From contig DASVTZ010000203.1 of the NCBI GenBank assembly GCA_036387335.1, positions 62,001 through 126,000 of the forward strand: a stretch of 64,000 nt of DNA, in the 5' to 3' direction. This document shows positions 13,811 through 54,457 of the stretch, in pieces. Source of the stretch: Longimicrobium sp. (GTDB lineage Bacteria > Gemmatimonadota > Gemmatimonadetes > Longimicrobiales > Longimicrobiaceae). A program made the translations under genes and the position numbers. Under the pieces are notes generated by a model. The model saw only the letters and a list, made by a program, of their open reading frames with translations, was not told the DNA's origin and searched no databases. Positions within the stretch are counted from its first letter, which is position 1, and every line of letters starts with the position of its first letter.

Positions 13811-15676
13811 TCACGCCGCCGGCTTCCGCTCCTTCCTCTCCACCCGCTCCGTGCGCGGCCCTGTCCTCGCGGCAGCACTCACCCCCCGCCCCAGCTCCGC
13901 CACCCCCTCCACCGCACCCACGTCCTCGTCCTCCTCGGGCGGGGCGATCTGGTGGGCGACGTCGATGACCTCGTCGGCCATGCCGCGGCGGTGCGGGTCG
14001 GCGATCCAGGCGGCGAGGCGCTGCATGAACTTCCACACCCCGCCGCCCGCCGGCCGCATGTAGTCGGGCGACGTCGGGTCGGTTCCCATGCGGTGGAAGA
14101 CCTGCGTCAGCCACTCCGGCCCGTGCCCACCCACCTCCAGCTCGGGCAGCCAGTTCTCCAGCTCCCCCACCGGCACCACGAAGAGGCCGTATTCCGCCAG
14201 CCCGGCCAGCAGCGCGTCCGCCTGCTGGCGTGCACCGCGCGGGAGCGTGTAGATGCCGCCCGACTTGTAGTCCTCGTTGCGCATCTCCTGGTGGAGGCGC
14301 TTGCGGCGCTCCTCCCACGGCTCCCAGAAGACGGGCGGAACGAAGCCCGCGCGCATCAGCTCGCGGAAGTCTTCCTTCCCCTTGAAGATGTCCAGGTCCA
14401 CCAGCGCCACGGCGGGGATCCCCATCTCGCGCAGGGGGCGCACGATGCGGCGGATCGTCTGCTTGTTCTGCGCGTTGAGGAAGACGCAGCCGTCCGCCCC
14501 TCCGCGCCGCGCGCCCAGCAGCCGCTCGTTCATTTCGGCGTAGAAGACGCGGTCGGCGTCCGCTTCGCAGACGATGGCGCCCTCGTGGAAGAGCGCCCCC
14601 AGCACCCCCGTGGAGCGGAGGAGCGGGTCGCGCATCATCGTCTGCAGCTTGTCCGCGGAGAGCAGGCGCGCGCTGGCGACACCCGAGCGCCACGTCAGGC
14701 GCACGATGTTCACGCGCTTGCCGCTCTGGATGCACCCCATCACGAAGTCGGGCGAGTGCGTGGAGGCGAGCAGGTTGGCCCCGCGCTCGGCCGCGAGCTC
14801 CGTCAGGCGCTTCCCCAGCTTGCGGATGAGCGGCGGGTGCAGGAAGGCCTCCGGCTCGTCCACCAGCATCAGCCGGTAGTCGGCGCTCATCACCGCCGCG
14901 GTCAAGCCGGTGAAGGCGCGCACCCCGTCACTCATGGTGGCGATGTCGTGCGCGCGGCCGTGGAAGGCGCGGGCACGCTCGTCCAGCGCCTGCTCCTCCG
15001 CCAGGTCCAGCGGCGCACGCTCGGACATGCGGATGCGGAAGCGCGGGCTTCCCGTGGGATCGATGGTGAAGTACAGCCCCAGCGCATCGGCCGTGATCTC
15101 GCGGATGCGCTCGCGGGCCGCATCGTCCTTGAAGAGCGCGGCCAGGTGGTTGGCGGGATTCGCCTGCAGGTCGCGCGCGAGCCTTGGCTGCGTGAGGGCG
15201 AGGCGCGTCTGCCCGTCCAGCCGCAGGGTGAACAGCGACAGGAACTCGCGGCTCACCATGCGGAGCTCCTCGCCGCTGAGGCCGCCGCCGTGCTCCACCG
15301 CCGCCCGAAGCGCCGCCAGGTTCACGAGCTGTTCGCGCGGAGTCTCCAGCAGGTCTGTGGCGCGCTTTCCGCCCTCCTCGTCGCGCGCCATCAGCCGCAG
15401 CACGCGCACCCAGCCTTCGTCCACCGGCTCGCCCTCCACCTCGCGCGAGCGCACCATCCGCTCCACCGTCTCCGCATCGGGAAGATAGGGGGTGATGGAG
15501 CGCACGATGTGCAGGAGCGAGGGGTCGCCGCTCTCGATCAGCGCCTCCAGCTCGCGCAGCGCCAGGCTCTTCCCCGAGTTGTTGGGCCCGACGAAAACCG
15601 TCATCGGCCCCGGCGCGAAGCTGAGCGCGGGCTCGCCGGGTGCGGCACCGAAGCGAAGGGTGACGTTGCGCAGCAT
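13811..15676 (-). CDS. OLD-family ATPase/TOPRIM nuclease
   Basis: 621 residues. The N-terminal ABC-type ATPase has Walker A GPNNSGKS (residues 30-37), signature MSDGVRAF (about 248), Walker B LMLVDEPEAFLHP (about 269) and the switch His in STHSP (307). It is followed by a TOPRIM-like nuclease region: Glu371 in CEADADRVFYAE and the Asp pair in VALVDLDIFKG (427 and 429). This order is that of OLD (overcoming lysogenization defect) proteins. No UvrD-like helicase is adjacent, so it is not a Gabija-type pair. The likely role is DNA cleavage or nicking in phage or plasmid defence; that is inference from the family. It is isolated, convergent with the DUF58 operon. Confidence 0.8.
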   Translation of the reverse strand: MLRNVTLRFGAAPGEPALSFAPGPMTVFVGPNNSGKSLALRELEALIESGDPSLLHIVRSITPYLPDAETVERMVRSREVEGEPVDEGWVRVLRLMARDEEGGKRATDLLETPREQLVNLAALRAAVEHGGGLSGEELRMVSREFLSLFTLRLDGQTRLALTQPRLARDLQANPANHLAALFKDDAARERIREITADALGLYFTIDPTGSPRFRIRMSERAPLDLAEEQALDERARAFHGRAHDIATMSDGVRAFTGLTAAVMSADYRLMLVDEPEAFLHPPLIRKLGKRLTELAAERGANLLASTHSPDFVMGCIQSGKRVNIVRLTWRSGVASARLLSADKLQTMMRDPLLRSTGVLGALFHEGAIVCEADADRVFYAEMNERLLGARRGGADGCVFLNAQNKQTIRRIVRPLREMGIPAVALVDLDIFKGKEDFRELMRAGFVPPVFWEPWEERRKRLHQEMRNEDYKSGGIYTLPRGARQQADALLAGLAEYGLFVVPVGELENWLPELEVGGHGPEWLTQVFHRMGTDPTSPDYMRPAGGGVWKFMQRLAAWIADPHRRGMADEVIDVAHQIAPPEEDEDVGAVEGVAELGRGVSAAARTGPRTERVERKERKPAA

Positions 15677-20444: not shown

Positions 20445-21631
20445 TCAGGCCAGCGATAGATCGGTTTGCGTGGTGGCGACGGGGCCCGCAGGCCGCTCAT
20501 TGCGGAGGGCCTGGTCCAGCCGCTCCACGAAGCGGCGCTTCTTCATGTGCCGCTCGCGAACGGCGACGGTGCGCGCATCCGACTCGTCTTTTCGGCCGTC
20601 TCGCACCGCGATCTCGCGGAGGTCGATCAGGAGCCGCACGGCCTCGTCGTAAGCCCCGGCGTTCTTTTGAGCGGCGAGCTCGTCCACCCGCGCCCAGGAT
20701 TCCTCCTCGCGCTCCGCGATCGCGTCCAGGCGGCGCTCGCGGGCGGCGGCCTCCGCGCGTTCGCGCCGCGCCAGGTCCCGCGCGGCCTCCAGCTCCTCGA
20801 CGCGGACCCGCTCCGCCGCGATCCGCTCCGCCGCCTCGAGCAGATCCGCCACGGTGCGGGGCTCCGCCTGCTCCGGCCGGACTCGGCCTGCGCCTCGCGG
20901 AAACGGCGCAGAAGCTCCGCGCGCACGGAGGCGGGGTCGCGCTCGGCCACCTGCGCGAGAAGGTCGGCGGCTTCGGCGGCGGGGAGCGCGGCGACCCAGG
21001 CCCGTACCGCCGCCGGGTCATCGGCGGGAACGGTGCTGGCGCTGCCCTCCGCCGCGGCCGCGATCAGGTCCGGATCGATGCGCAGGAAGTCCGCGAAGGC
21101 GTGCTGCGCGGGCGTGAGATCGCCGAGCCCCGGCGGAACCGGTGGCTCCAGCTCCTCGTCCGCCACCTCGCCGGAATAGACGCACAGGAGCCACCCGAGA
21201 TACAGCGCCCGGTGGTCCCCGCTCGCGATCTCGCCGCGCACCGCGACGATGGATGCAAGCAGCCCCGACGGCTCCAGCCATTCGTCGTCCCCGCCGTCCA
21301 GCTCACTGGTGAAGCAGAGGATCACGGGCTCGCCATCCGCCGACGCCGGAGGGCCGGGGCAGTACGGGTGGGCGGTCTCCAGCGCCAGCGAACCGGGTGG
21401 AAGGCGCAAGAAGATCTCGCGCGTTCCCCAGTTCGCCAGGTACAGGAAGGCGTCGAAGTACTGCTCCACCCAGGCGAACGCATCTCCCTTGAAGTCGCCC
21501 CAGTGGTACTCGTTCACGAACCGCGTGGGCGTGATCTCGGCGCGCGTGGAGACGGCGCGCAGCTCGCGCATCTCGGCCGGGGAGAGCTTCCGGTCGATCG
21601 CCAGGAACTCGTAGTACTGGTATTCGCTCAT
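20445..21631 (-). pseudogene. Frameshifted gene of uncharacterised family (starts MSEYQYYEFLAID)
   Basis: Two overlapping frames together encode one protein of about 395 residues. The first (from 21631) reads MSEYQYYEFLAIDRKLSPAE, TRFVNEYHWGDFKGDAFAWV and YLANWGTREIFLRLPPG, a recognisable widespread family of unknown function, and loses protein-like composition after REAQAES. The second frame continues naturally with PEQAEPRTVADLLEAAERIA and a long coiled coil ending in KKRRFVERLDQAL. A single-base deletion near 20873-20886 (a CCGGCCGG run) explains the switch. It lies 44 bases after jetD and could belong to that transcript. Either a real mutation or a sequencing error. Confidence 0.7.
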
Positions 21632-21675: not shown

Positions 21676-23037
21676 CTACCGCGCGGCGTGCACGGAGCGA
21701 GCGGTGCCTGGATCACCACCGCGCCGGGGCGGCGGTTCGCCGCGGAGGACGAACCGGTCCAGATCGGCCTTGAGCGAATCGATGAGACCCTCATGGTGGG
21801 CGGCCTGGCGGAGAACGGACATCTCGGCGACCAGGCCCGGGAAGAGGCGTGCGGAAGTCTGAACGGCGGCAGGGTCGAGCGCCGCGCTGCCGGCGCGCAC
21901 TGCCGCCCGGTAGTCTTCCGGCTCCATGCGCCACGGGCTTGCGGACGCGGCATAGCGGTCGAGCACCGCCGCGGCGATCTCCAGCCCTCCAGCATCGAAG
22001 TCTCCGCTGTAGAAGAGATGGACCCCGGTTTCCGTGAGAAGCCGGAGCAGCTGATGGTCGGCGGTGTTCAGGTTACCGTTGGTGCAGATGAGCGTGGGGT
22101 GGTGGTCGGCACGATAGTGGGCGTTCACGTGCCGTACGAGCGCCGCGAAGACGGTGGGGTTCTCCACCACGAAAGCGACATCCCTCCAGGCGCGCACGTC
22201 TCCGCCCAGCTCAGCCAGGGAGTAGAGCGTCAGCGGACGATCCACCCCCTTTTTGCGAAGCACCCTCAGGTATTCGTCGTCCCCGCACAGGCCAAAGGTG
22301 TCCACGCGTACGGAGACCGGATCGCGCGCGATCCCCGCCTCGGACAGCAGAAGGGTCCGCCAGGCCACGGTACGACGCTCCTCGCGCCGCGCCGCTTCCG
22401 GGAAGGTGAACTCCAGTGCCCGCAGGAGGAGCGCGCCGGCGGGGCGGTCGGCGTCCAGCCCATGCGCGTTTCCAGTGACCTCGTTCGCCAGCTCCGCCAG
22501 GTAGATGGGCGGCGAGGCGCTCCCCGGCATGCAGTCGAACACCCGCGCGACGGCACGCACGGCGTCCAGCAGCGTCGCCTCGCCCCAGCGGTGGAAGTCC
22601 GCGCGGAGCGCCGACTCACCCGCGTGCAGCCACGTCATCATCCGGGTCTGCGCGCCCATGGAGAGCCCTAGCGAAGGGAGCATCTGGAAACAGCGGCTGA
22701 TGGCGCGCTCCCTCGCGGCCAGCGCACGCTCCTCCCCTTCCTTCTTCCAGACGATGGGCGCACCGAGGTGAAGCTCCAGCGCTTCGCGGAGCGAACACCG
22801 AAACCGGGTCCTCTCCCGAAGGATCCGGTCGATCTCGGCCACGCGCATCGTGCCACCCGGACGCAAGAGCCTGCCGACCAGGTCGTGCAGCGCATCGGCC
22901 TGATCCGGCGTCTCGATGGTGAGCACCCCCTTTGGCGCGCCGTGCCGCTCCAACGAGCGGTGCAGCGCATCCAGCAGTGGAGCAAAAGCGGGGTTCCGCA
23001 GGAGCGTGAGCAGATCCTCGACGACGTCACGTCGCAC
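21676..23037 (-). CDS. jetD: Wadjet type II JetD, DUF2399 TOPRIM nuclease (TIGR02679)
   Basis: 453 residues from a GTG overlapping the jetC stop by 11 bases. The C-terminal DUF2399 region has the TOPRIM signature: Glu in FVVENPTVF (about residue 292), LICTNGNLNTADHQLL (about 317-332) and the Asp pair in YSGDFDAGGLEIA (346 and 348). The N-terminal half is the helical arm region of TIGR02679 proteins. In Wadjet systems JetD is the topoisomerase-VI-A-like nuclease that cuts small circular plasmids after the SMC complex has extruded them. All expected acidic residues are present, so it should be active. Confidence 0.88.
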   Translation of the reverse strand: MRRDVVEDLLTLLRNPAFAPLLDALHRSLERHGAPKGVLTIETPDQADALHDLVGRLLRPGGTMRVAEIDRILRERTRFRCSLREALELHLGAPIVWKKEGEERALAARERAISRCFQMLPSLGLSMGAQTRMMTWLHAGESALRADFHRWGEATLLDAVRAVARVFDCMPGSASPPIYLAELANEVTGNAHGLDADRPAGALLLRALEFTFPEAARREERRTVAWRTLLLSEAGIARDPVSVRVDTFGLCGDDEYLRVLRKKGVDRPLTLYSLAELGGDVRAWRDVAFVVENPTVFAALVRHVNAHYRADHHPTLICTNGNLNTADHQLLRLLTETGVHLFYSGDFDAGGLEIAAAVLDRYAASASPWRMEPEDYRAAVRAGSAALDPAAVQTSARLFPGLVAEMSVLRQAAHHEGLIDSLKADLDRFVLRGEPPPRRGGDPGTARSVHAAR

Positions 23038-26000
23038 GCTCCACCTCCCGGGCCCGCGGGGTCTCGACGCCGAGGAGCTCGTCGCCGATGAAGTCGAAGC
23101 GGCGCTCGCCGTCCCACACGGAGAGGGTGGGGGCGACGGTGATGCCGTCCGAGAGCATCTCGTAGGTGGCGGAGCCGCGCACGCCCGCGCCGAGCCCCGC
23201 GGCCTTTTCCGTCGCCATGATCCAGCAGAAGCCCAGCTCGGTGAGAAGGGCGTAGATCTCGCCGGCGTTGCGGTCGTCCACGCCCGCGAAGGCCTCATCG
23301 AAGCCCACCAGGCGGGGCGCCGCGCGGTCCGCGGTGGCGAGGCGCGCGGAGACGGCCGCGATCAGCGGAAGGAGGAGGTCCAGCGTGCGCCGCCCGCCGC
23401 TCCCCTGGCCGTACACGCGCTTCGTCAGCGGCATCCAGCGCCCGCTCTCGTCGCGCCGCTGCACGGACAGGGTGTACCACTGCTGGTACGCCACCATCTC
23501 GCGCAACGCGGTGGCGTAGTCCACCAGCAGCTCGCGCTCGCGGCTCCTGCGGCGGATGTCGGACACCATCCTGCGGAAGATCTCCATCAGCTCGTCCCGC
23601 CGCGACTCGTCCAGCGCGATGCCCCGCTGCGAGAGGAGGTCGTCCAGCCGCCGCGGGTCGAAGGCGTCGGCGGTCTCGCGCGGGCGCACCTCCCAGTGCA
23701 GGCGCATGATCCCGCCCTTGAAGAGCTTCATGCGGCCCAGCGTGGCGTTGATCTCCTCCACCCACCGGCGCGTGCCGCGGATGGCGTCGCGGATGGCGTC
23801 CACCACGTCGCGCAGCATCAGCTGCTCGATGAGCTTCCGGTCCTCCTCCTCCAAGAGGTTCTCGTTGCGCACCTGCAGCGCTTCGAGGACGCGGTAGAGC
23901 TCGTACAGCGGCATCTCGCCCTGCTCGTGCGTGAAGCGGAGGATGTCGCCGTCGAGCGTGGGGCTGAGCTCCTCGAAGGTGCTGCTGGCCTGCGCGAACG
24001 CGCGATGGAGGTCGTCGCGCGCGGCCTTGGCTTGCCCGTCCACTTCGCGGATCTCCACCCCGGTCAGGATGAGCTCGCCGGCGCGGCCGAGCCCCGGACC
24101 GCGCGCGGCCTCCACGTACTCTTCGAGCGTGGGATACGCTTCCAGGCGGGTGCGGAAGGCGGCCTCGTCCCCCTGCAGTCGTATCGCGGCGGAGCGGAGC
24201 TGGTCCGCGTAGTCCGGCTCCGACTCCGAGAGCTGGGTCACCTTGCCCGTGTTCTGCGCGATGGAGTCCCTCGCCGCCTCGTCCGCGCGGGCGATGTCCG
24301 CCAGCCTGTCCTGGAGCACGCGGATCTCCGCCGCCAGCTCTTCGCGGCCGATGCTCGCCTGCGTGAGCTGCTCTTCGAGGGTGCGGAGCTGCGCGTCCAG
24401 CGTGCGCACTCGCGCGTCCGATTGCGCGATGCGCGGCGCCAGCTCCTCCAGGCTCGTACGAAGATCCTCCAGCCTTCGAACCCGCGCGGCGTGCGTGCGG
24501 CGGATCTCCTCCAGCCGCTCCACGTCCTCTCCCACCGCGCGCGCCAGTGCCGATACTTCGCGGAGCGCGCCCGCCACCGCTTCGACCTCGGCCTTGGAGC
24601 GGTCCTTGAGGTAGGGTGCCGCGTCGGTGGCGCGGTCGAGCGCCGCGGTGCGCTCCTGCACGTCGCGCGTGTCCGTCTCCACCGTTTCCGCGGCGAGCTC
24701 AGCGCGCTTGCGGCGGCGCTCGCGCTCCTGCTCCTCGCGGTGGACCGCCAGGAGGCTGTCGTGGAGCGCCTGCAGGGCGCGCAGCTCCTGCGCATCGCGC
24801 CACTCGCGGCCCAGCGTGCGCTCGCGGGCGGTGAACGACTCGATCTCCGCGGTCAGCGTCGCCAGGGTGCCGCGCAGCTCTTTCAGTCTGGCGCGTGCCT
24901 CGTCCATGCGGCGGCGGCGCTCTTCGCGGCGGGCCGTCTCGCCCAGGAAGCGGACGCGCGCCTCGGCCGGTGCGGCGGTGTGGCCATGGAGCGGACCCAG
25001 GCGCCAGCCACCGTCCGGCTGCACCACCCCGCCCTCTCCGCCCAGCCCCAGCGTGCGCAGCGCGGCGCGAACGTCTTGCTCCGTCACTCCCGAAAGCGCG
25101 ACGGGCACCAGCCACTCGTCCGCCACCGCCACGGAGTCAGACGGCGCGATCCAGCGGTCGCCCAGTCCGTGTGCATCCAGCAGCGTGCGCACCCGCTCCG
25201 CCTCATCTACCGGGACGATGAGCGCATCGAGGAGCCCGGAGTCGTGGAGTGCGGCCTCGACTCGCGCAGCCAGCTCCGCGTCCTTCGCCAGCGGGTCCGC
25301 GAGGTCGCACGCGGCGAAGAGCGGGACGTGCGGGATGCCGTGCTCGCGCAGGAGGCGCCGCGCGGCGGCCTGTGCCGGGGTGCGGTCCGGCTCCACGTCG
25401 CGCTCGGTCGCGAGCCGCTTCAGCCGCGCCTCCACCTCCGACACCTCGCCCTGCACCCGGCCGCGCACCGTCTCCAGCTCCACCGCCAGCGCGCGCAGCT
25501 CGTCGCGCGCTTCGTCGTGCGCGGGGTGCAGCGGCGCGAGCATGGCGGCGGGGCGATGCCCCCGCGGATCGTACGCTTCGAGCCGCGCGAGCACTTCGCC
25601 GAAGGCCGCGTCCGGCACGCGCAGCTCCGTCGCCGCCGCCCGCCACGCCTCCAGCGCCGCGGCGGCCCCGGCGCGGCCCGCCTCCGCCTCACGCGCCGCG
25701 GCGCGGAAGCGTTCGTCCGCCTCGCCGAACTCGCGGCGCGCGAGGTCGCTGGCCCTGCGCGACAGCTCCAGCCGCCCGTTGGCCGCTGCGAGCGCGTCGT
25801 GCGCCGCGCCGATCGTGGCGAGCACGCGCCGCCGAGCCTCCACCTCGTCATCGATGGAGGACCGGGCGAGCTCCGATCCCGGCGCCGCACCGGCCTCGAC
25901 GCCGATCCCTTCGAGCGCATCGCGGGCCCGCTCCACGCGCGACGACAGCGGCACCCAGAACGCGCGCCGCGCCGCGCCGGCCAGCTCCTCCAGCCGGCCG

Positions 26001-27283
26001 GCGAGCCGCCCCCGCTGGCGCGTCCAGGCCGCCGCATCGCCCTTGAGCTGCTCCTCCTCATGCGCCAGGACCGACTGCGCCCGGCGCCGGTCGTCGCGGA
26101 GCGCGTCGAATGCCGCCGAGGATTCACGCTGCTCGCCCCGTACGGCGTCCAGCCGGGCCTCCAGGTCGAACGCGCCGTGCTCGCGATACTGCGCCTGCCG
26201 CACGGTCAGCCGCCCCTCGATCTCCGCCCGGTCCTCGGCGAGGCGGTCGCGCTCCGCCGTTCGGCCGGCGATCTCGTCGCGGGCCGCCGCCAGTTGGGCG
26301 AGGAGCTTCGCGTGTGCCTTCTGCCGGCTGGCGTGCTCCGCCGACGACGCCTGGTACGCGACCGCCGCCTGCCGCGCCGAAGCGAGCACGGCCTTCTCCT
26401 GCGGCTCCTCCAGCGAGCGGATCGTCTCGAGCTGGCCTCGCACGTGGTCGAGCTCGGCCTCGATGGTGTCCAGCCGCGAGAACACCTCCGACGCACCCTC
26501 GATGGCGGCGCTCTGGATGGGCGGCAGCGATTCCTTGAGGTACGCCTCCACTTTTCGCGGGTTGAGCCCCTCCCCGAGCTTGGGAGTGCGCACCACGTGC
26601 AGCATTTCCAGGAAGCTCTCGTACTCCTTCACCGACCTGAACTTGAAGAGCGCCTCGTTGACGGCGGCCTTGTACCCCTGCTGGTCCGTGAACACCTGGC
26701 CCGTGTGCCCCAGCCGGTCGCGCAGCTCGCCGGGACGGAGCGGGCGCGTCGGCTGCTTCCCGTCGTGGAGGTGGAAGTCGATGGCCACGCGGCGCGGACC
26801 CGACATGACGAAGCCCCACCGTTCCACCTTTTGATTGGCCCAGTCGCGCGAGGAACGGAGGCCGATCCCGATGGTCTGGAACACGCCGGAGCCGCCGCGC
26901 TCGAACTCCAGCGCGATGTAGGCGGTGCGCTCGCGGTGGTAGGTAGGCGCGTCGGGCGATGCGTCGTCCTTGCCGATCAGGTAGTAGCGGATGGAGCGGT
27001 CGTTGCTCCCCATGGTGTCCACCCGGTCAGGGGTGAGCATCATGTCGAGCACCAGCGTGATGGCCGTTACGAGCACCGTCGACTTCCCCGACTCGTTCTG
27101 CCCCGTCAGCATCAGGTTGCCGCGCGCGAAGTGGAATACCTCCGCCTCTCCGAACAGCCAGTAGTTCTGCAGGATCAGCCGGCGAGGAATCCAGCGGTCC
27201 CCGTCCGATGCATGCATGGCGGCGAGCACGTCCAGCATGCGCGCCGGGGTACCGGCCAGGCGGAAGAATTCGGGTTGTGTCAT
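23027..27283 (-). CDS. jetC: Wadjet type II JetC, SMC-like ATPase (TIGR02680)
   Basis: 1,418 residues. Walker A GQNESGKST at 61-69 follows ILQNYWLFGEAEVFHFARGN, the characteristic opening of TIGR02680. The middle is long Ala/Arg/Glu coiled coil on both sides of a hinge-like globular section around residues 630-800 (HGIPHVPLFAACDLADPLAK). The ABC signature GSGGRRTLDLLLPLI begins near 1294 and Walker B RLVGFDEAFAGVDDRN near 1324. This is the DNA-loop-extruding motor of the Wadjet complex, partner of JetA (kleisin role) and JetB. The start ATG lies 35 bases after the DUF4276 stop; it has no clear Shine-Dalgarno sequence. Confidence 0.92.
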   Translation of the reverse strand: MTQPEFFRLAGTPARMLDVLAAMHASDGDRWIPRRLILQNYWLFGEAEVFHFARGNLMLTGQNESGKSTVLVTAITLVLDMMLTPDRVDTMGSNDRSIRYYLIGKDDASPDAPTYHRERTAYIALEFERGGSGVFQTIGIGLRSSRDWANQKVERWGFVMSGPRRVAIDFHLHDGKQPTRPLRPGELRDRLGHTGQVFTDQQGYKAAVNEALFKFRSVKEYESFLEMLHVVRTPKLGEGLNPRKVEAYLKESLPPIQSAAIEGASEVFSRLDTIEAELDHVRGQLETIRSLEEPQEKAVLASARQAAVAYQASSAEHASRQKAHAKLLAQLAAARDEIAGRTAERDRLAEDRAEIEGRLTVRQAQYREHGAFDLEARLDAVRGEQRESSAAFDALRDDRRRAQSVLAHEEEQLKGDAAAWTRQRGRLAGRLEELAGAARRAFWVPLSSRVERARDALEGIGVEAGAAPGSELARSSIDDEVEARRRVLATIGAAHDALAAANGRLELSRRASDLARREFGEADERFRAAAREAEAGRAGAAAALEAWRAAATELRVPDAAFGEVLARLEAYDPRGHRPAAMLAPLHPAHDEARDELRALAVELETVRGRVQGEVSEVEARLKRLATERDVEPDRTPAQAAARRLLREHGIPHVPLFAACDLADPLAKDAELAARVEAALHDSGLLDALIVPVDEAERVRTLLDAHGLGDRWIAPSDSVAVADEWLVPVALSGVTEQDVRAALRTLGLGGEGGVVQPDGGWRLGPLHGHTAAPAEARVRFLGETARREERRRRMDEARARLKELRGTLATLTAEIESFTARERTLGREWRDAQELRALQALHDSLLAVHREEQERERRRKRAELAAETVETDTRDVQERTAALDRATDAAPYLKDRSKAEVEAVAGALREVSALARAVGEDVERLEEIRRTHAARVRRLEDLRTSLEELAPRIAQSDARVRTLDAQLRTLEEQLTQASIGREELAAEIRVLQDRLADIARADEAARDSIAQNTGKVTQLSESEPDYADQLRSAAIRLQGDEAAFRTRLEAYPTLEEYVEAARGPGLGRAGELILTGVEIREVDGQAKAARDDLHRAFAQASSTFEELSPTLDGDILRFTHEQGEMPLYELYRVLEALQVRNENLLEEEDRKLIEQLMLRDVVDAIRDAIRGTRRWVEEINATLGRMKLFKGGIMRLHWEVRPRETADAFDPRRLDDLLSQRGIALDESRRDELMEIFRRMVSDIRRRSRERELLVDYATALREMVAYQQWYTLSVQRRDESGRWMPLTKRVYGQGSGGRRTLDLLLPLIAAVSARLATADRAAPRLVGFDEAFAGVDDRNAGEIYALLTELGFCWIMATEKAAGLGAGVRGSATYEMLSDGITVAPTLSVWDGERRFDFIGDELLGVETPRAREVERAT

Positions 27284-27318
27284 GCTGATGCCATGCGTAT
27301 GAAAAACCAGGTCTACCG

Positions 27319-28011
27319 TTATTCCGCGCCGGACCGTCCCAGTGACTCCAGCCTCTCGACCCACCGGGAAAAGTGCGGACACCGCTCCCGCAGCCGGACG
27401 ATGCCGATCTGCCGCGCGATCTGAGGTCCGACGCTCGCCTTCTGGAAGGCGTATTCGGGAATCTCCGCGATGATCCGCTTGGATGGAGCCGTGTCCGGGC
27501 CGTCGTCGATCAGCTCCGGGCTCTCGTACCCGCTCGCGAGCTCGACCAGCCGCGCAATCGGACGGGGGTGCTCCAGGTACTCCCAGTCCAGCTTCGCCGG
27601 ATCGGCGAACAGGAGTGCCTCGAACTCGTGGAGCTGGATGTAAGGGGTGAGCCGCCAGTCTCCGACGTCGGCGGCCATCGCCGATTCGAGCGTGCGAACG
27701 CGATCGTACGGATCCGTCAGCCGTGCGGCGCTCTCGTACCCGGGGAAGTCCGCCGGCAGCGCGTACAGGTCGAACATCGTGGTGAACGACGCGCTTCCAT
27801 CCTCCGCCATCCACCGCTGAAGGTCCCGGCGGGCCTTGCCATAGTCCGGCAACCCGCCACGGTGGACGACGTCGGGGCGCCTGCGGTCGCGGCGCGTCGT
27901 CACACAGCGCACCGAGGTCACCACACCGTAATCCGCGAGGTGGGGAGCCAGAACCTCGTTCACGAACGCTTCCTCCGTCTGACCCTCCGCCAGCACGTTT
28001 AGACGGCGCAT
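27319..28011 (-). CDS. DUF4276 protein, TOPRIM-like partner of the ATPase
   Basis: 230 residues. It begins MRRLNVLAEGQTEEAFVNEV, where EGQTEE is the diagnostic DUF4276 start and supplies a TOPRIM-like Glu. Further conserved blocks are TTMFDLYALPADFPGY, YIQLHEFEALLFADPAKL, IDDGPDTAPSKRI and CPHFSRWVERLE. DUF4276 genes pair with AAA ATPase genes, and the pair is thought to be a split OLD-like nuclease; here the ATG overlaps the ATPase stop by one base (TGATG). The unusual point is the location between jetB and jetC of a Wadjet operon. Confidence 0.88.
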   Translation of the reverse strand: MRRLNVLAEGQTEEAFVNEVLAPHLADYGVVTSVRCVTTRRDRRRPDVVHRGGLPDYGKARRDLQRWMAEDGSASFTTMFDLYALPADFPGYESAARLTDPYDRVRTLESAMAADVGDWRLTPYIQLHEFEALLFADPAKLDWEYLEHPRPIARLVELASGYESPELIDDGPDTAPSKRIIAEIPEYAFQKASVGPQIARQIGIVRLRERCPHFSRWVERLESLGRSGAE

Positions 28012-29141
28012 CAGCGGGGCCTTCCACCCAGAACGTTCTTGTCCCACAGCTCCGACAACGTGTACTCCTCCAGCCAGGACGAGAGCTTTTCGGCGTCGAG
28101 GCGCCGGAACACGGACTCCGCGCCCTCGCGCTCGGCCACGATCACTTGACCAGGCTCGAAGTGGTCCAGCAGCACGGGCGACTGCGTTGCCACGATAACC
28201 TGACTGTGGCTGGACGCCCCCTGAAGCAGCCCCGCAAGGATCGAGATCGCCCGCGGATGCAGACCCAGCTCGGGCTCGTCCAGGATGATCACCGCGGGCA
28301 GCTCCTCCCTCGGCTGAAGCAGCAACGCGACAAGCGCCATGGCTCTGAGGGTGCCATCGGAAGCCTGGTGCGGCCCAAAGACCGCGTCATTGCCGAACTC
28401 TCGCCATCGCAGGAGGAGCGTGGCATTCTCCGGCTCCAGGACGAAATCGGCGAAGAAGGGGGCAATCTGGCGTAGCGTACCGGTGATGCGCTGGTAATGG
28501 GCAGGGTGCTGCTCACGAATACGCAGCAGGAACGGCGCGAGGTTGGCGCCATCCTCCTTAAGATGCTGGCTATCCGTAACACTCCAACGCTGTCTTATGC
28601 GAGCCGTCTCGGAGGTATTGTGGAACTGGTAGACGGCGCAATCCCGCAGGAAGCTCCAGAAGGTGCGGATCGTTTTAAGAATATTATTTTCTCGCGCAAC
28701 CCCCATGAGCCTCGTCTCCTGCTGCCCTGCTCCCAGCTTGACCCACGTCTCGACCTGTTCCGAACGCGTACTCTGAGCGATCCCCAGCTTCTCCTCGGCG
28801 AACACCAGTGTGTCCTGTGCGGCGTGGGACAGCCGGAAGGAGTAGCCACTGGCCCCACCGTGGGTCCTGAAGGTAAGTGCCGCCTCGATTTCGGGAGAAA
28901 TGGCGGGTCCGCTGTGAAGCAGTGTGCTACCTCCACCCGACTTCGCCACGTACAGCTGAAGGCCGCCGGGCGGTGTCATCATCCGGTTCAACATCCGGAA
29001 GAACGACACGAAGTTCGACTTGCCGGCCCCATTCGGTCCGATCAGCACGTTGACGGGCCCCAGCTCGAGCTCCTCCAGCCTGCGGATCGTCTTGAAGCCG
29101 TTCAGCGTAAGCCGGTGCAGCATCAGGTTAGGTTCTTTCAT
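28011..29141 (-). CDS. AAA (ABC-type) ATPase paired with DUF4276
   Basis: 376 residues. Walker A GPNGAGKSNF near residue 31, signature-like QASDGTLRAMALVALLL, Walker B VIILDEPELGLHP and the switch region VIVATQSPVLLDHF place it with the AAA_21/OLD-like ATPases. It lacks its own nuclease domain; the overlapping DUF4276 gene provides the TOPRIM-like half. The start at 29141 gives MKEPNLMLHRLTLNGFKTIR; 29123 is an alternative. It begins 92 bases after jetB on the same strand. Base composition is slightly lower in GC than jetA-jetD, consistent with insertion of the pair as a unit. Confidence 0.87.
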   Translation of the reverse strand: MKEPNLMLHRLTLNGFKTIRRLEELELGPVNVLIGPNGAGKSNFVSFFRMLNRMMTPPGGLQLYVAKSGGGSTLLHSGPAISPEIEAALTFRTHGGASGYSFRLSHAAQDTLVFAEEKLGIAQSTRSEQVETWVKLGAGQQETRLMGVARENNILKTIRTFWSFLRDCAVYQFHNTSETARIRQRWSVTDSQHLKEDGANLAPFLLRIREQHPAHYQRITGTLRQIAPFFADFVLEPENATLLLRWREFGNDAVFGPHQASDGTLRAMALVALLLQPREELPAVIILDEPELGLHPRAISILAGLLQGASSHSQVIVATQSPVLLDHFEPGQVIVAEREGAESVFRRLDAEKLSSWLEEYTLSELWDKNVLGGRPR

Positions 29142-29233
29142 GCTCGCCGTGCGTGGGCTGACTCGGCTGGGTGCGGAATTCGTTGACGGCGCCAAGATAG
29201 CTCGCCACCACCCGCGGGTGCGAGCAACTCGCA

Positions 29234-30415
29234 TCAACCATCTTCACCGACAACCACATCGTCTTCGTAATGCGCCGTCAATCGCCCGGCCGTGGGAAGG
29301 ATGAGATACTGCCCATCCTCGCCGGTGCGGCGCAGCATCCCCCACGCCTCCATCTCCACGATCAGCTCCGCGGCGAGCGAGCGCACCGGCTGCTCGCGCA
29401 ACGTCTTTCCCCACTTCGCGCCGAAGCGCGACTGCAGCTCGGCCACGTCCTGCTCGATGCGGCCTACGTCAACCAGGAACGCGTCACCACCGCCTGGCGC
29501 AGGCACCAGCCGCTTCTCGGCGAACCGGTCGCGCAGGAGTCCACAGAAGCAAAGGAGTACGTGGGCGATGCCCGCGGCGAGCGGGATGGGCGTCTGGATC
29601 GCGTCGGCGGAGCTGGCGGGGCGCAGCACGCGCGCGTACTCCGGCGTGACTTCCAGCTCCCAGTGGGTGAGCTTCTTCAGGTTGCTCCGCACCATCTCGC
29701 ACTGGGCGGGGACGTCCAGCAGGCGGAAGGCGGCTGGGTCGTCGCGCCGGAAGAGGGCCGGGTTGAGCAGGAGGGTCCGGTACAGGCGGATCTCGTCCGT
29801 TCCCTCGGGCACGACGATGGGCGGTGCCGCGCGGCCCTCGGCGAGCGCCTCCAGCTCCGCGGCGGGGATGCCGACGTGGAGCCGCCACCCCGCGTCGCCC
29901 CAAGCGTACAGCGCGTCCTCCTTGCCGTTGCGGTCCGCCCACTCGTCCACGCTCCCGTCCTGCAGCCGCAGGACGCCCATCTCCTCCAAGCCGCGGAAGA
30001 CCCGGCGGGCGGCGAGACGCTGGTCGCGCCGGCTCCAATCCACGGCGGCGACACCCTCTTCCCCGCTGCGCAGGCGGATCTCTTCGGCGATCTGCGAGAC
30101 CGTGAACTTCCGCCCGCTGGTGTGCTCGCCATACCAGAGCACCCATGCGAGCAGCGCGTAGTCGAGCGAGCCGCGGGCCCACGCCAGCCCGTGCGACGCC
30201 TCGGCGCGGGCCGGCGTCTTCACCAGCCGCGCGAACTCGGTGTGCGTCTGCAGCCGCCAGCCGGTGAAGCGGGAGAAGGCGTTCTGGAGAGCGGGTCCAT
30301 TGCGGCGGATCTTCTCCAGGAGCGGCCGGTCGTCCGCCGCGGCGATGATGGGCCGGTCGATCAGCGCCTCGGCGCACGCCTTGACGTCGTCTTCCAGCGC
30401 GTGGGAGGTGATCAC
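29234..30415 (-). CDS. jetB: Wadjet type II JetB, DUF2398 protein (TIGR02678)
   Basis: 393 residues from a GTG overlapping the jetA stop by four bases. Blocks such as ALQNAFSRFTGWRLQTHTEF, DYALLAWVLWYGEHTSGRKF, RLYRTLLLNPALFRRDDPA and LEVTPEYARVLRP identify DUF2398/TIGR02678. The protein consists of tandem winged-helix-like modules as in MukE/JetB subunits, which bind the kleisin partner. It fits the fixed gene order DUF2397-DUF2398-SMC-DUF2399, except that two extra genes separate it from the SMC gene. Confidence 0.87.
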   Translation of the reverse strand: MITSHALEDDVKACAEALIDRPIIAAADDRPLLEKIRRNGPALQNAFSRFTGWRLQTHTEFARLVKTPARAEASHGLAWARGSLDYALLAWVLWYGEHTSGRKFTVSQIAEEIRLRSGEEGVAAVDWSRRDQRLAARRVFRGLEEMGVLRLQDGSVDEWADRNGKEDALYAWGDAGWRLHVGIPAAELEALAEGRAAPPIVVPEGTDEIRLYRTLLLNPALFRRDDPAAFRLLDVPAQCEMVRSNLKKLTHWELEVTPEYARVLRPASSADAIQTPIPLAAGIAHVLLCFCGLLRDRFAEKRLVPAPGGGDAFLVDVGRIEQDVAELQSRFGAKWGKTLREQPVRSLAAELIVEMEAWGMLRRTGEDGQYLILPTAGRLTAHYEDDVVVGEDG

Positions 30416-31941
30416 CGCGCCACCTCCGTGCGGCGCAGGCGGAAGGCGCGCAGGTACAGGTAGCCGTCCGGCGCCGCCACCTCGGCCACCGCCGCCGGGT
30501 CTGCGGGCGGAAGGATCTGCACGCGCGACCCATCCGTCAGCCGCACGTGACGGTCGGGGGAGCGAAGGCAGTCGCGCACCAGCCGCACCACGCGCGAGCG
30601 GTCGCCGGGGGAGCGCAGCACCAGCCCCTCCAGCGCCAGCTCGCCCGTGCCGAAGAGGTCGTCCCAGAAGCGGGCCTCCTCCCTTCGCTCCTCCTGCATC
30701 CGCGCGCGCAGCTCCGCGCGCTCCAGGCTCGCGTCGCGCAGGGCGGTGACGGCGCGGAAGCTGGGGTTGCCGCGCACGCGGGGGTGCAGCTCCACGTCCC
30801 AGGGCGGCTGATGCCAGACGGACGCGCGCTCCAGCAGCTCGGGGGCAGCGCTGGAGCTGTAGTCGCGCGTGTGCCGCGGGGTCCCCCACCCGAAGGCGCG
30901 CGACGCCAGGCGATGCGCCTCGTCGTTGCTCGACCGCTGGAACGCCTGGGCCAGCAGCCGCAGGTCACGTCCGCGATTCAGCGCGTTCCGGCGCTCCGTC
31001 ACCACCCGCTCGATCTGCTCCACCAGCGCACGGACGCGCGCTGTGGTCTTGGCGTGCAGGATCTCCGCGTCGCCGCCGCGCGCCGAGAAGCCGCGGAGGG
31101 CGCGGAGCTGACCCTCGAACCCGGCGAGCAGCTCTTCCTCCGTGCGTAAATCGCCCTTGCGCTCGCGTTCGTTCCGGGCGAGAAGCGTCACCAGGCGCGC
31201 ATCGGTCCCCGCCGCGGCCCAGTCCTCGAAGAGGTCCCGGGTGCGCTCCACGAAGTCCTTGAGCCCGAGCGCGAACTCGTCCAGGTAGTCGCGGAGCATG
31301 CGCTTGTACTGGAGGAAGACCACCAGGTCCGCCGCGGACGGCATGCGGTCGTGGTCCAGCTCGCGCAGATAGCGGCCGGCCTGCTCGCGGATCTCCTGGC
31401 GCGCGTCCTCCGCCGCGTTCCAGGCGCCCTCCAGCGCGCGCAGCGTGTCGGCGGTGGCGTGTTCGACCGAGACGCCGGCGAGGAGACGGTCCAGCTCCAG
31501 CAGCGCCTCGCGCAGGCGGTGCAGCCGGGTGGTGTCCAGCGAACCGCGCGAGCCCTCCTGCCCGCTGAGGCGGATGAGCATCTCCTCGATCATCCGCGCG
31601 CTCTCGCTGATCTGGTAGCGCCGCGCGGCGCGCACGAACTCCTCTATGGTGCGCGCCTGGTTCACGTCGTGCTCGGAGACGACGACGCGCCAGCTCTCCA
31701 GCTGCCGCAGGTGCGCCTCGCACGCCTCCTCCGTATACGCATCATGATGCGGGTGATGGGCGCGTACGAACGCAGCCACCTCGCTCGGCCAGAGCCACCC
31801 CGTCTCGCCCGACTCGTACCGCTGGTGGAAGAAGCGCACGATGGGGCGGTACAACGCGGCGTTCTCGGCGACCAGATAGCTGACTTCCTCCACTTTTCGC
31901 ATGAGGAGGTCGTCAACAATTAACCGTTCGGTGCGGTGCAT
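30412..31941 (-). CDS. jetA: Wadjet type II JetA, DUF2397 protein (TIGR02677)
   Basis: 509 residues. The order EEVSYLVAENAALYRPIVRF, LRQLESWRVVVSEHDVNQAR, TIEEFVRAARRYQISESARM and LFEDWAAAGTDARLVTLLA is that of DUF2397/TIGR02677, the kleisin-like (MukF/JetA) subunit: an N-terminal winged helix, a helical bundle and a C-terminal basic domain. An open frame continues 189 bases upstream, but the family alignment as I remember it begins near MHRTERLIVDDLL or MRKVEEV (31902). It is the first gene of the operon and is divergent from a DinB-like gene. Confidence 0.87.
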   Translation of the reverse strand: MHRTERLIVDDLLMRKVEEVSYLVAENAALYRPIVRFFHQRYESGETGWLWPSEVAAFVRAHHPHHDAYTEEACEAHLRQLESWRVVVSEHDVNQARTIEEFVRAARRYQISESARMIEEMLIRLSGQEGSRGSLDTTRLHRLREALLELDRLLAGVSVEHATADTLRALEGAWNAAEDARQEIREQAGRYLRELDHDRMPSAADLVVFLQYKRMLRDYLDEFALGLKDFVERTRDLFEDWAAAGTDARLVTLLARNERERKGDLRTEEELLAGFEGQLRALRGFSARGGDAEILHAKTTARVRALVEQIERVVTERRNALNRGRDLRLLAQAFQRSSNDEAHRLASRAFGWGTPRHTRDYSSSAAPELLERASVWHQPPWDVELHPRVRGNPSFRAVTALRDASLERAELRARMQEERREEARFWDDLFGTGELALEGLVLRSPGDRSRVVRLVRDCLRSPDRHVRLTDGSRVQILPPADPAAVAEVAAPDGYLYLRAFRLRRTEVAR

Positions 31942-31990
31942 GGCGATTGGTCCACAGCGAGTCGCCGAAACAGCCCGGGCAGGAGCGAGC

Positions 31991-32020
31991 AAGATAGGAA
32001 AGGTACGCAGGCAAGCACAA
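31991..32020 (-). promoter_or_regulatory. Candidate promoter of the Wadjet operon
   Basis: On the minus strand TTGTGC (32015-32020) and TATCTT (31991-31996) are spaced by 18 bases; the predicted start site near 31984 lies about 43 bases before the jetA ATG. The match is moderate. The same 247-base gap must also hold the promoter of the divergent DinB-like gene. Confidence 0.4.
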
Positions 32021-32188
32021 CTATTCCGAGTCAGTAAAGCCCCGACCGCAGTCCCAGAAAGGGCTGAGCCGATCGAACCTCTTGCGACACGCATGCGCGC
32101 GAAGCAGTTTGACACCGCCACCGAACACACGCCGAATCAGGTGGCGTCCGCAGACCTTGAGCTTCCCCAGATTCCACCGAGGCACCCC

Positions 32189-32671
32189 ATGTCCGACGAT
32201 TCCGCGCCGTCCACGCAGGTCATCACACCCGAAGCGCTGCTGGAGCACTGGCAGGGCCACCGCCGCCTCACGCGGCGCGTGATCGATGCGTTCCCGGAGG
32301 ACCAGCTCTCTACCTATTCACTGGCCGGGATGCGCACCTTTGGCGAGATGGCGATGGAGCTGCTCGCCATCGCCGTGCCGATGGTGCGCGGGGTGCTAAG
32401 CCAGGAGTGGGACACCTCCTTCGACCGCACGACCGTCGCCAAGGACGAGATCCTCCGCCAGTGGGACGCCGCGACGGAGGAGATGAACACGCTCTGGCCG
32501 CAGATCCCGCTCGAGAAGTTCAGGGAGCAGATGACGGCGTTCGGCATGTACCCTGGCCGCGCATCGGACCTCATCCTGTACGCGATCGACAACGAGATCC
32601 ACCACCGCGGCCAGGGCTACGTTTACCTGCGCTCGCTCGGAATCGAGCCGCCGCCGTTCTGGGAGCGCTGA
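32189..32671 (+). CDS. DinB-like family protein
   Basis: 160 residues with GAGG eight bases before the ATG. Four-helix-bundle composition with LEHWQGHRRLTRRVIDAFPE near the start, FGEMAMELLAIAVPMVRGVL in the second helix and EIHHRGQGYVYLRSLGIEPP near the end. The HHRGQ motif is the usual DinB/YfiT metal-binding site. These proteins are putative metal-dependent thiol S-transferases; DNA-damage regulation is known only for some members. Frame is open upstream, but only this start has a ribosome site. Confidence 0.8.
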   Translation: MSDDSAPSTQVITPEALLEHWQGHRRLTRRVIDAFPEDQLSTYSLAGMRTFGEMAMELLAIAVPMVRGVLSQEWDTSFDRTTVAKDEILRQWDAATEEMNTLWPQIPLEKFREQMTAFGMYPGRASDLILYAIDNEIHHRGQGYVYLRSLGIEPPPFWER

Positions 32672-32750: not shown

Positions 32751-33829
32751 ATGAGTCCGTCGAAGAAGCTTCCCAAGCGCGAGACCGCCATCGCGGCACC
32801 GGTCACACTGGGTGAGGAGGTCCGGGAGTTGATCCGGACCGCCCGGCAGCAGGTGGCGCAGGTGGTGAACGCTGGCCTCACGCTCCTTCACTGGCGGATC
32901 GGCGACCGTATCTTGCGGGAGATCCTGCGGGGCGAACGCGCCGAGTACGGGGCGGAGGTCCCGCGCTTTCGCGCGATCTCCAGGCGGAATTCGGCCGTGG
33001 CTTTGGACCGCGCAACCTGTTCAACATGATCCGCTTCGCGGAGGTGTTCCCAGAACCCGAAACTGTGCAATCACTGATTGCACAGTTGGGGTGGACCCAC
33101 TTCCTCCACCTCATCGCAATCGAGGACCCACTGAAGCGAGACTTCTACGCCGAGATGTGCCGCGTCGAGCACTGGAGCACGCGCACACTGGCCGCGAAGA
33201 TCCAATCGATGCTGTACGAGCGCACCGCCCTCTCGCGAAAGCCAGACGCAGTCATAAGGCAGGAGCTGGACCAACTGCGGTCTGAGGGAGCGCTGACGCC
33301 CGAGCTCGTCTTCAAGGACCCTTATCTGCTCGATTTCCTCGGACTGGCGGACCACTACAGCGAACGTGACCTCGAGGCGGCCCTCCTGCGAGAGATCGAG
33401 CGCTTCCTTCTCGAGCTCGGTTCGGGCTTCGCATTCGTTGAGCGGCAGAAACGCATCACGCTCGACGGGGACGACTACTACATGGATCTCCTCTTCTTCC
33501 ACCGGAAGCTGAGGCGCCTCATCGTAATCGAACTGAAGCTGGGTGCGTTCAAGCCGGCCGACTCCGGGCAGGTGGAGCTTTATCTTCGCTGGCTTGATCG
33601 CCACGAGCGCCAGCCTGGCGAGGATACCCCGCTCGCGATCATCCTGTGCGCGGGAAAGAAGCAGGAGACGGTCGAGTACCTCAATCTCGGCCGCAGCGGA
33701 ATACACGTTGCCGAGTACATCACGGAGCTGCCGCCGCGCGAGTTGCTGCGCGAGCGGCTTCACCAGGCGGTCGCCGCCGCACGCTCTCGCCTGGAACATC
33801 GGAGCGTGAATGGCGATGCGCCTGCATGA
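32751..33829 (+). pseudogene. Frameshifted DUF1016 (YhcG-type) PDDEXK nuclease
   Basis: The first frame, preceded by AAGGAGG, encodes LGEEVRELIRTARQQVAQVV, LLHWRIGDRILREIL and GERAEYGAEV, the DUF1016 N-terminus. After 32958-32970 the family sequence continues in another frame (SRDLQAEFGRGFGPRNLFN, then MIRFAEVFPEPETVQSLIAQ), consistent with loss of one base in GTCCCGCGC. The C-terminal part is complete, including the PD-(D/E)XK core DDYYMDLLFFHRKLRRLIVI followed by ELK. The 3' part could be translated alone from 33026 and would keep the nuclease domain. A sequencing error is possible. Family members are linked to DNA repair or mobile-element defence. Confidence 0.8.
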
Positions 33830-37701: not shown

Positions 37702-38322
37702 CTACCACCTCAGAGAATGGCTCGCCAGAAGTTCCCGGCCTTCGGTCCGGATCGCTTCCATCAGGGGATCGCCCTGCCTCGTGCGCTCGCGCACCTGTTC
37801 GGCGGGGATGACGATCCCAGCGAGGCGCAGCCCGAGACGGTTCTGTATCTCACCGGAGGCATCGATGATCGCGCGCTCCACGTCCGCAACCCTCTCAGCG
37901 GCGCAGGCGACGAACAGGACATCCAGATCGCTGTCGGCGCGCGCATCGCCACGTGCCTGGCTGCCGAACAGCACGGCGGAGCGGATGCCATCGAGCACAC
38001 CGGCGCGTGTCAGCGCATCGGTCAGAGCCGCCTTCAGGATTGCGATCCGCCGTCCTTCGGCGTCGAAGAGCGCGCGGAGCGCCGGCTCTAGATGGTGGTC
38101 CCGGTTGACGCGATACTGGTGCGTGCTCGAGGTCCCGCCGCGCATCAGAATCCCGAGGGCGGTCAGCTCGTTGAGTGCCGTCGCGGCTCCAAGAGTTGAG
38201 CGCACTCCTCCCAGCCGCTGCGCCTCCCGCCCGGTGACAGGCGATTCGAGAGGCATCAGCGCGCGAAGGATCTGGATCTTGGCCGTAGTGGCCAGGACCG
38301 CGTCGAGCGCATGAAAGAGCAT
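37702..38322 (-). CDS. MNT-type nucleotidyltransferase with N-terminal winged helix
   Basis: 206 residues. The first 85 residues form a winged-helix domain (AKIQILRALMPLESPVTGRE, TALNELTALGILMRGGTSST). The second half is a minimal nucleotidyltransferase with VLFGSQARGDARADSDLDVL, containing the GSxxxGxxxxxSDxD motif. Such MNT proteins neutralise HEPN toxins by adenylylation, and the fused DNA-binding domain suggests autoregulation: two or three palindromic sites lie directly upstream (next entry). Start at the ATG at 38322; the frame is open for 15 codons upstream through the operator repeats. Confidence 0.85.
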   Translation of the reverse strand: MLFHALDAVLATTAKIQILRALMPLESPVTGREAQRLGGVRSTLGAATALNELTALGILMRGGTSSTHQYRVNRDHHLEPALRALFDAEGRRIAILKAALTDALTRAGVLDGIRSAVLFGSQARGDARADSDLDVLFVACAAERVADVERAIIDASGEIQNRLGLRLAGIVIPAEQVRERTRQGDPLMEAIRTEGRELLASHSLRW

Positions 38323-38342
38323 GTGCGATCCGGTGCACGTGC

Positions 38343-38388
38343 ACCAGATTTGGTACGGTTGCACCAAATTTGGTACAGACGCACCAAT
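38343..38388. promoter_or_regulatory. Operator repeats upstream of the MNT/HEPN operon
   Basis: ACCAGATTTGGT (38343-38354) and ACCAAATTTGGT (38363-38374), the second a perfect 12-bp palindrome, lie in 20-bp direct repeats starting GCACCA; a third copy is begun by GCACCAAT at 38381-38388. The exact 20-bp period (two helical turns) puts the sites on one face of the DNA, as for cooperative repressor binding. The downstream gene encodes a winged-helix protein that could be the ligand. Confidence 0.65.
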
Positions 38389-52918: not shown

Positions 52919-54457
52919 ATGGTAGATTATCTGCCTTCGGCCCGGACAAGTATTCCCATGGTGGCAAAAACTCCGCCTCGCGGTTTACCGGAAGTGCTGG
53001 TGAGCACGTCCGAAACGAGCGGTGCCGTCCAGCGGATGGTGAAGAGGGGCGAGCTTCGGAAGATCGGACCGCGCCTGTACACGCCGAACCAGGTGGATGC
53101 GCCGGAGAGCATCGTCGGCAGGAACCTGTGGCAGGTGATCGCCCTCCTCTTCCCCGGCGCGGTCGTCTCCCACCGCACCGCGCTCACTCAGAAGCCGACG
53201 CCTAAGGGCACGGTGTTCCTGACCGGCGCGTACGAGCGGATCGTGCGGCTTCCCGGCGCTACCGTCCGCATCCTCAAAGGCCCAGGACCGCTCGAGGGTG
53301 ACAACGGATACTTTGGGGCGCTGTACATGGCGTCTGAATCACGCGCGCTCCTGGAGTGCCTCAGGTTTTCGCGGGTTCGGAGCAGCGAAGCGTCCGTCGT
53401 TTCCGCCACCGAGCTGGAGACGATCCTCGAGCGCAGGCTCTCCTTCAAAGGGGAGGGCTGGATCAACAGCATACGCGACCGGGCGCGGGCGATCGCACCG
53501 GAGCTCGGGCTGGAGGAAGCGTATGCAAAGCTCGACAGGATCGTCGGGGCGCTCCTCGGCACCCGCAAAGCAAGGATGCATGCTCCGACCGCGATCGCGC
53601 GCGCGGCGGGAGCGCCCTACGATGCCGCGCGCCTGGAGCGGTTCACGCGTCTCGCGGACGCGCTGCGGCTCTGGCCTTCGGCGGATCGCCCGGATCCCGT
53701 GATCCGTGGGCCCGCGTTCCAGAACCTCGCGTTCTTCGACGCCTACTTCTCCAACTTCATCGAGGGAACCGAATTCGAAGTCGAAGAGGCGCTGGAGATC
53801 GTCTTCGAGAACCGCATTCCGGCCGCGCGTCCCGCTGACGCGCACGACGTCCTGGGTACGTTCCGCCTAGTGTCCAGCAGCCACGAGATGGGCCAAAGCG
53901 CGGCGGATCTGGCCCGCGACTTCCCCGCGTTCCGTGCGATGCTCGAGTCCAGGCACGAGACCATCCTGCACGGCAGGCCGGAGACGCAGCCGGGCCGCTT
54001 CAAGGAAGTGGTCAATCGCGCCGGTGACACGGTCTTCGTACATCCCGAGCTGCTGGTGGGCACGATGTCGAGGGGTCTGGAGATCATGCCGTCGCTCCCC
54101 GACCCGTTTCACCGGGCGGTCTACATGATGTTCTTGGTATCGGAGACCCACCCGTTCAACGATGGAAACGGCCGCCTCGCGCGGGCGATGATGAACGCCG
54201 AGCTGATCTCCGGGGGCCAGCGCAGGCTCCTCATCCCCACTGCATTCCGGGGCGACTACATTGGCGGCTTGCGCCGTCTTTCCAAGCAGGACGATCCCAA
54301 GACGCTGATCCAGGTGCTCGACTTCGCCCAGCGATTCACCGCCGCGGTGGACTTCGGCGATCTCGCCGCCGCGCAGCGGGTCCTCACGCAGTGCGGCGCC
54401 TTCCAGTCCGGCGACGAGGCGCGCCTCCGCATGCCGCGCTCAACGACCGGATCGTAG
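52919..54457 (+). CDS. Fic protein with fused N-terminal winged-helix domain
   Basis: 512 residues. Residues about 20-95 look like the winged-helix of AbiEi/antitoxin-type regulators: SETSGAVQRMVKRGELRKIG, PRLYTPNQVDAP and VSHRTAL. Residues 270-470 form a Fic domain with the active site HPFNDGNGRLARAM (411-424), complete for AMP transfer. An inhibitory (S/T)xxxE(G/N) motif is present as SNFIEG (278-283), upstream of the Fic core, so activity should be self-restrained. The combination suggests an AMPylase that also binds DNA or carries its own antitoxin-like module. Start: 52919 or 52958. Confidence 0.85.
   Translation: MVDYLPSARTSIPMVAKTPPRGLPEVLVSTSETSGAVQRMVKRGELRKIGPRLYTPNQVDAPESIVGRNLWQVIALLFPGAVVSHRTALTQKPTPKGTVFLTGAYERIVRLPGATVRILKGPGPLEGDNGYFGALYMASESRALLECLRFSRVRSSEASVVSATELETILERRLSFKGEGWINSIRDRARAIAPELGLEEAYAKLDRIVGALLGTRKARMHAPTAIARAAGAPYDAARLERFTRLADALRLWPSADRPDPVIRGPAFQNLAFFDAYFSNFIEGTEFEVEEALEIVFENRIPAARPADAHDVLGTFRLVSSSHEMGQSAADLARDFPAFRAMLESRHETILHGRPETQPGRFKEVVNRAGDTVFVHPELLVGTMSRGLEIMPSLPDPFHRAVYMMFLVSETHPFNDGNGRLARAMMNAELISGGQRRLLIPTAFRGDYIGGLRRLSKQDDPKTLIQVLDFAQRFTAAVDFGDLAAAQRVLTQCGAFQSGDEARLRMPRSTTGS

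Follow-up and report, generated by a model that had tools for sequence, protein, structure and literature searches.

Wadjet's JetABCD extrudes circular DNA and cuts it via JetD. OLD-like ATPases that are paired with an effector, for example AriA with AriB in PARIS, act as trigger-toxin pairs, and defence genes embedded in the operons of other defence systems have served the discovery of new systems. Cleavage of plasmids by Wadjet is established (review PMC10586767). HEC stands for "Hma-embedded candidate" and goes back to a 'guilt-by-embedding' screen in the preprint of Payne et al. 2024, as cited in PMC12988326, according to which some HECs are reportedly active. Our literature search, which covered Payne et al. 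2024 through the citing paper PMC12988326, yielded no published test of HEC-01 as such, no paper with the term DUF4276, none joining DUF4276 and Wadjet, and no earlier report of HEC-01 within Wadjet. Here, we describe a 64,000-nucleotide stretch of a Longimicrobium genome (the window), in which an ATPase gene and a DUF4276 gene lie inside a type II Wadjet operon.

Operon layout and Wadjet subunits

The operon runs from 31941 down to 21676 on the minus strand, in the order jetA-jetB-(AAA ATPase-DUF4276)-jetC-jetD (Table 1). The PADLOC profiles JetA2, JetB2, JetC2, and JetD2 all matched, on one strand and in canonical order, confirming the claim of an earlier note on this DNA that a complete type II Wadjet is present. 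The same note had placed the pair between jetB and jetC on the same strand, with a one-base overlap and a 35-base gap, and all of its coordinates are exact. The genes jetA and jetB overlap by 4 bp, jetC and jetD by ~11 bp, and the ATPase stop and DUF4276 start share one base (TGATG). With 92–110 bp before the pair and 35 bp after it, and with the other junctions overlapping, the pair thus interrupts an otherwise overlapping operon.

Table 1. Genes and gaps of the Wadjet operon and its borders, in window positions.
Feature	Position	Strand	Matches and remarks
jetA	30412..31941	-	DUF2397, TIGR02677; first gene of type II Wadjet; Pfam DUF2397 1.4e-76; PADLOC JetA2 2.3e-69
jetB	29234..30415	-	DUF2398, TIGR02678; GTG start; Pfam DUF2398 4.3e-58; PADLOC JetB2 7.5e-78
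jetB-to-ATPase gap	29124..29233	-	110 bp, or 92 bp from the alternative ATPase start; unalignable in G321, where it is ~270 bp
Nested ATPase, HEC-01A	28011..29123 (alternative start 29141)	-	Pfam AAA_21 3.4e-30; PADLOC HEC-01A 1.8e-132
Nested DUF4276 protein, HEC-01B	27319..28011	-	Pfam DUF4276 1.4e-52; PADLOC HEC-01B 3.7e-76
DUF4276-to-jetC gap	27284..27318	-	35 bp
jetC, SMC-like	23027..27283	-	TIGR02680 7e-131, just below NCBI's cut-off; PADLOC JetC2 7.8e-193
jetD, TOPRIM nuclease	21676..23037	-	DUF3323 and DUF2399; Pfam DUF2399 7.1e-31; PADLOC JetD2 6.3e-75
Flanking conserved protein	20627..21631	-	No Pfam family; one border of the site without Wadjet in G319
DinB-family gene	31901..32671	+	Pfam DinB 3.6e-16; true start within the ORF; other border of the Wadjet-less site in G319

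No intrinsic terminator was called on the operon strand between 21000 and 32800, in a scan whose promoter model may not suit the phylum. Co-transcription of the pair with Wadjet, as the earlier note had proposed, is plausible from the shared strand, the short gaps, and the lack of a called terminator. At the operon borders, a search for mobile-element ends gave nothing beyond a 9-bp chance repeat. An assembly chimera is unlikely, because a second, independent genome (G321) shows the same order jetA-jetB-ATPase-DUF4276-jetC.

The catalytic motifs of the Wadjet subunits are present. JetC carries a Walker A (GQNESGKST), a Walker B (GFDEAFAGVDD), and the signature GSGGRR, which is found in the window and in a further Longimicrobium genome (G032), most other aligned JetC proteins having an LSGGE-like motif. 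The TOPRIM motifs of JetD are intact (VVEN and GDFDAGG), with E292, D346, and D348 invariant in the alignment.

Other defence-related genes occur in the window. A YhcG/DUF1016 nuclease gene (PADLOC PDC-S02) adjoins the Wadjet operon at 32751-33829 on the plus strand; it consists of two overlapping ORFs (32751-33029 and 33026-33829) that correspond to the N-terminal and C-terminal portions of the profile, and it looks frameshifted. The aligned stretch of this gene is missing from G319. Another OLD-like ATPase, apart from the nested pair, is encoded at 13811-15676 (minus strand; PADLOC Old 1.3e-21), and there are weak matches to the PADLOC candidates PDC-M05A at 37702-38367 (minus strand; 8.4e-13) and the Fic-like PDC-S04/SoFic at 52919-54457 (plus strand; ~1e-12).

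The nested pair is HEC-01

Both nested proteins match the PADLOC profiles HEC-01A and HEC-01B over nearly their full length, and their genes are adjacent, which identifies the pair as HEC-01. The feature that gave HEC-01 its name, embedding in an Hma system, is not seen in the window, where the host is Wadjet. Since HEC-01 was named for its site of discovery and the majority of sampled pairs stand outside recognised operons (see below), Hma embedding is a feature of the discovery and not of the proteins.

The nested ATPase has intact Walker A (GPNGAGKSN) and Walker B (LDEPELGLHP) motifs, and is an OLD-type ABC ATPase by its profile matches to OLD (6p74, 1.3e-10) and GajA (~1e-9); the PADLOC AriA profile also matches it (4.7e-30). 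For the DUF4276 protein, six aligned HEC-01B sequences (alignment A2) share E9, D81, E129, and E131 as invariant residues. E9 follows strand 1 and D81 follows strand 3, an arrangement that only hints at a TOPRIM fold; a literal DxD is absent. A profile search of the PDB and an hhalign comparison with JetD both came back empty, and Foldseek of a low-confidence AF2 model (pLDDT 52) against the PDB gave no match below 1e-3. The earlier note had spoken of two ATPase-TOPRIM machines; this holds for JetD, with its Glu and DxD, and a TOPRIM assignment was not obtained for DUF4276. Between the window and G321, the pair has a dN/dS of 0.08-0.09, a value that is rough because dS is near saturation, and which argues that the pair is functional and under purifying selection.

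HEC-01 occurs widely outside Wadjet

With A2 as the search profile, and sampling phyla by genome, we found HEC-01B matches in 30 of 399 genomes of Pseudomonadota, 27 of 284 in the phylum of a deltaproteobacterial MAG, 12 of 249 in the window's own phylum, 3 of 290 in Bacillota, and 1 of 297 in Actinomycetota. A HEC-01B ORF was present in 76 of the 78 loci from this search, adjoined by HEC-01A in 69 of the 76. Within ~1.5 kb on each side of these 78 loci, a jet gene was found only at the window's own locus. The same was true of 27 longer HEC-01 contexts, in which most pairs stood outside any recognised operon, and HEC-01 lacked an adjoining Wadjet in every sampled genome outside the window's genus. 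Conversely, a search with A2 of 20 other genomes with type II Wadjet, a set without a positive control, detected no HEC-01.

Lone pairs are carried on plasmids of Piscirickettsia, Acinetobacter, and Nostoc. Embedded pairs were also seen: in Aeromonas media within a WYL-SNF2 helicase-methylase operon, and in Ideonella between a methylase and Mrr. The ATPase and DUF4276 genes are therefore one free-standing, widespread two-gene unit. A phage-borne pair (L239, 3149-5660) lies directly after the repressor gene of a Mu-like prophage.

The jetB-jetC junction is a variable slot in the genus

A JetC scan covered public genomes of 84,980 species, of which the best 80 loci were kept. Wherever both jetB and jetC were visible in these loci, they were adjacent, mostly overlapping or less than ~0.3 kb apart, with two exceptions that have ORFs at the junction, one in the Longimicrobium MAG YPbin7 (L033) and one in a member of the Clostridiales (L112). 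HEC-01 stood at the junction in none of the best 80. The Clostridiales type II Wadjet (L112, 8563-15765) has BRO-N and a small ORF between jetB and jetC, as well as GNAT and RhuM between jetC and jetD. In two actinobacterial loci (L052 and L066, 5345-14000), jetD comes before jetA and not after jetC.

Within Longimicrobium, the junction is a variable slot that holds HEC-01 twice, an Nmad2 gene, an HTH gene, or nothing. HEC-01 fills it in the window and in G321, whose proteins are 82-90% identical to the window's throughout. In YPbin7, where jetC is 90% identical to the window's, the slot contains an Nmad2 gene (6.9e-48). An 85-aa HTH gene occupies it in G180, which also encodes, on a different contig, a HEC-01 pair with 68% identity. 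In G032 the slot is empty and jetB and jetC overlap by 4 bp. Between the window and its relatives, similarity breaks off ~30 bp ahead of the jetB stop codon and returns at jetC codons 2-3. The YPbin7 jetC is split into two ORFs (L033, 1598-5657), with part of the window's coiled coil absent, reflecting either a decaying Wadjet or an assembly error.

History of the operon and of the pair

In the rpoB tree, the window genome (G000) groups with G319, followed by G316 (taken as YPbin7) and then G321, as ((G000,G319),G316),G321 with supports of 0.955 and 0.996. The sister species G319 has no jetB match and lacks the whole operon, with the flanks kept: the flank gene and dinB are 92% and 90% identical in nucleotides to the window's and lie ~220 bp apart. 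Between them (L300, 7903-7938) lie 36 bp that match the jetA start at 83% identity. The retained flanks and this remnant suggest that the Wadjet operon is ancestral and was deleted in G319. YPbin7 has the downstream flank in common with the window, and in G321 the neighbour beyond jetA differs from the window's.

The history of the pair may be a separate one. In the pair tree, the nested pairs of the window and G321 are sisters, and the free G180 pair branches next to them (supports 0.994 and 0.999). The boundaries of the pair differ on both sides between the window and G321 and are unalignable. Codon divergence at amino-acid-identical sites, as a fraction of saturation, is 0.89-0.90 for the pair, 0.66-0.69 for jetA-C, and 0.60 for rpoB, and GC3 is 0.78-0.84 in the pair versus 0.90-0.92 in jetA-C. 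The high silent divergence, the unalignable boundaries, and the presence of Nmad2 in the intermediate species together fit separate captures in the two species or a replacement of the pair. Alternatively, silent sites may have changed faster during adaptation of foreign codons (GC3 0.73-0.84 versus 0.90-0.93).

Discussion

The reading that we favour, and consider probable, is that HEC-01 is an independent defence module that occupies a cargo slot in a type II Wadjet operon, as a passenger transcribed together with it. Because the slot holds other genes or none in sister species, the pair appears to ride along with Wadjet as an exchangeable passenger and not to belong to it. The pair would be transcribed with Wadjet, a position that would bring it expression and joint inheritance. 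Without involvement of JetABCD, its OLD-like ATPase may sense infection or foreign DNA and license the DUF4276 protein to act as a nuclease or as another toxic effector, by analogy with the trigger ATPases and effectors of OLD, Gabija, and PARIS. One operon would then equip the host with a machine against plasmids and with a separate module that probably acts against phages. However, both species keep the arrangement intact at low dN/dS, so some positional benefit is possible. In addition, the Wadjet loci known in the genus number only five, of which one carries a frameshift and another is spread across contigs, and the gap upstream of the pair, also in its longer form in G321, could house a promoter of its own.

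A more ambitious version of this picture, which we regard as unlikely, would make the Longimicrobium Wadjet a platform, whose dedicated exchange slot swaps HEC-01 (perhaps captured twice), Nmad2, and HTH genes under one promoter, with functional coupling between Wadjet and the second module.

It is doubtful that the ATPase and DUF4276 proteins are true accessories of Wadjet, acting as a second effector, a back-up, or a sensor fired by a plasmid or phage that blocks it. Both partners are intact, and the same order in two species, on the same strand with short spacing and no called terminator, would suit such a composite. However, HEC-01 is missing from this junction in the other Wadjet II loci surveyed, and from the 20 other Wadjet II genomes searched without a positive control; the pair is common without Wadjet; unrelated genes fill the slot in YPbin7 and G180; and G180 carries Wadjet and HEC-01 on different contigs. 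The earlier note had suggested a Wadjet-specific second effector, back-up, or anti-countermeasure, an idea which is possible but unsupported, nothing here favouring it, given a pair that is free-standing elsewhere and a slot with unrelated genes or none in sister species. It had also named recurrence of the gene order in unrelated genomes as support, and restriction to this strain or its close kin as refutation; we saw the order in just two species, both of the same genus, which is close to the latter.

We think it similarly improbable that the pair landed neutrally or selfishly in a tolerated spot, where it would be driven by a promoter of its own and be linked to Wadjet neither functionally nor through regulation. 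The differing boundaries, the silent divergence of the pair in excess of the jet genes and rpoB (as if it had been captured or replaced separately), and its lower GC3 all agree with this, but the sense orientation and polycistronic layout in both carrier species do not, and the embedded pairs of Aeromonas and Ideonella share this layout pattern. Very improbable is a toxin-antitoxin-like guard that penalises cells in which the Wadjet operon is lost or inhibited. The AriA profile match and the analogy to AriA/AriB of PARIS speak for it, but G319, whatever its slot once contained, lost the whole operon down to its jetA-start-like remnant, and nothing points to toxicity of DUF4276.

Finding a catalogued pair in a Wadjet host, in a slot that other genes occupy in sister species, strengthens the case that HEC-01 is an independent module. 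The survey of the slot also names further candidates, Nmad2 and a small HTH protein, and the type II Wadjet operon tolerates exchangeable insertions between jetB and jetC.

Compared with known systems, the locus agrees with type II Wadjet in its four subunits, their canonical order, and intact ATPase and TOPRIM motifs, but differs in the two foreign genes between jetB and jetC and in GSGGRR in place of LSGGE. Its nested ATPase is related by profile to OLD, GajA, and AriA, as in OLD-family and PARIS-type pairs, whereas the DUF4276 protein matched no solved TOPRIM protein here, either by sequence or by fold. As in the embedded defences of the 'guilt-by-embedding' screen (Payne et al. 2024, as cited in PMC12988326), a second defence gene set lies within the operon of another system. 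With PADLOC's HEC-01, the pair shares gene order, stop/start overlap, and embedding in another defence operon, but its host is a type II Wadjet and not an Hma helicase-methylase-ATPase system; the pair itself is already catalogued, and what is new here is the host operon and its exchange slot.
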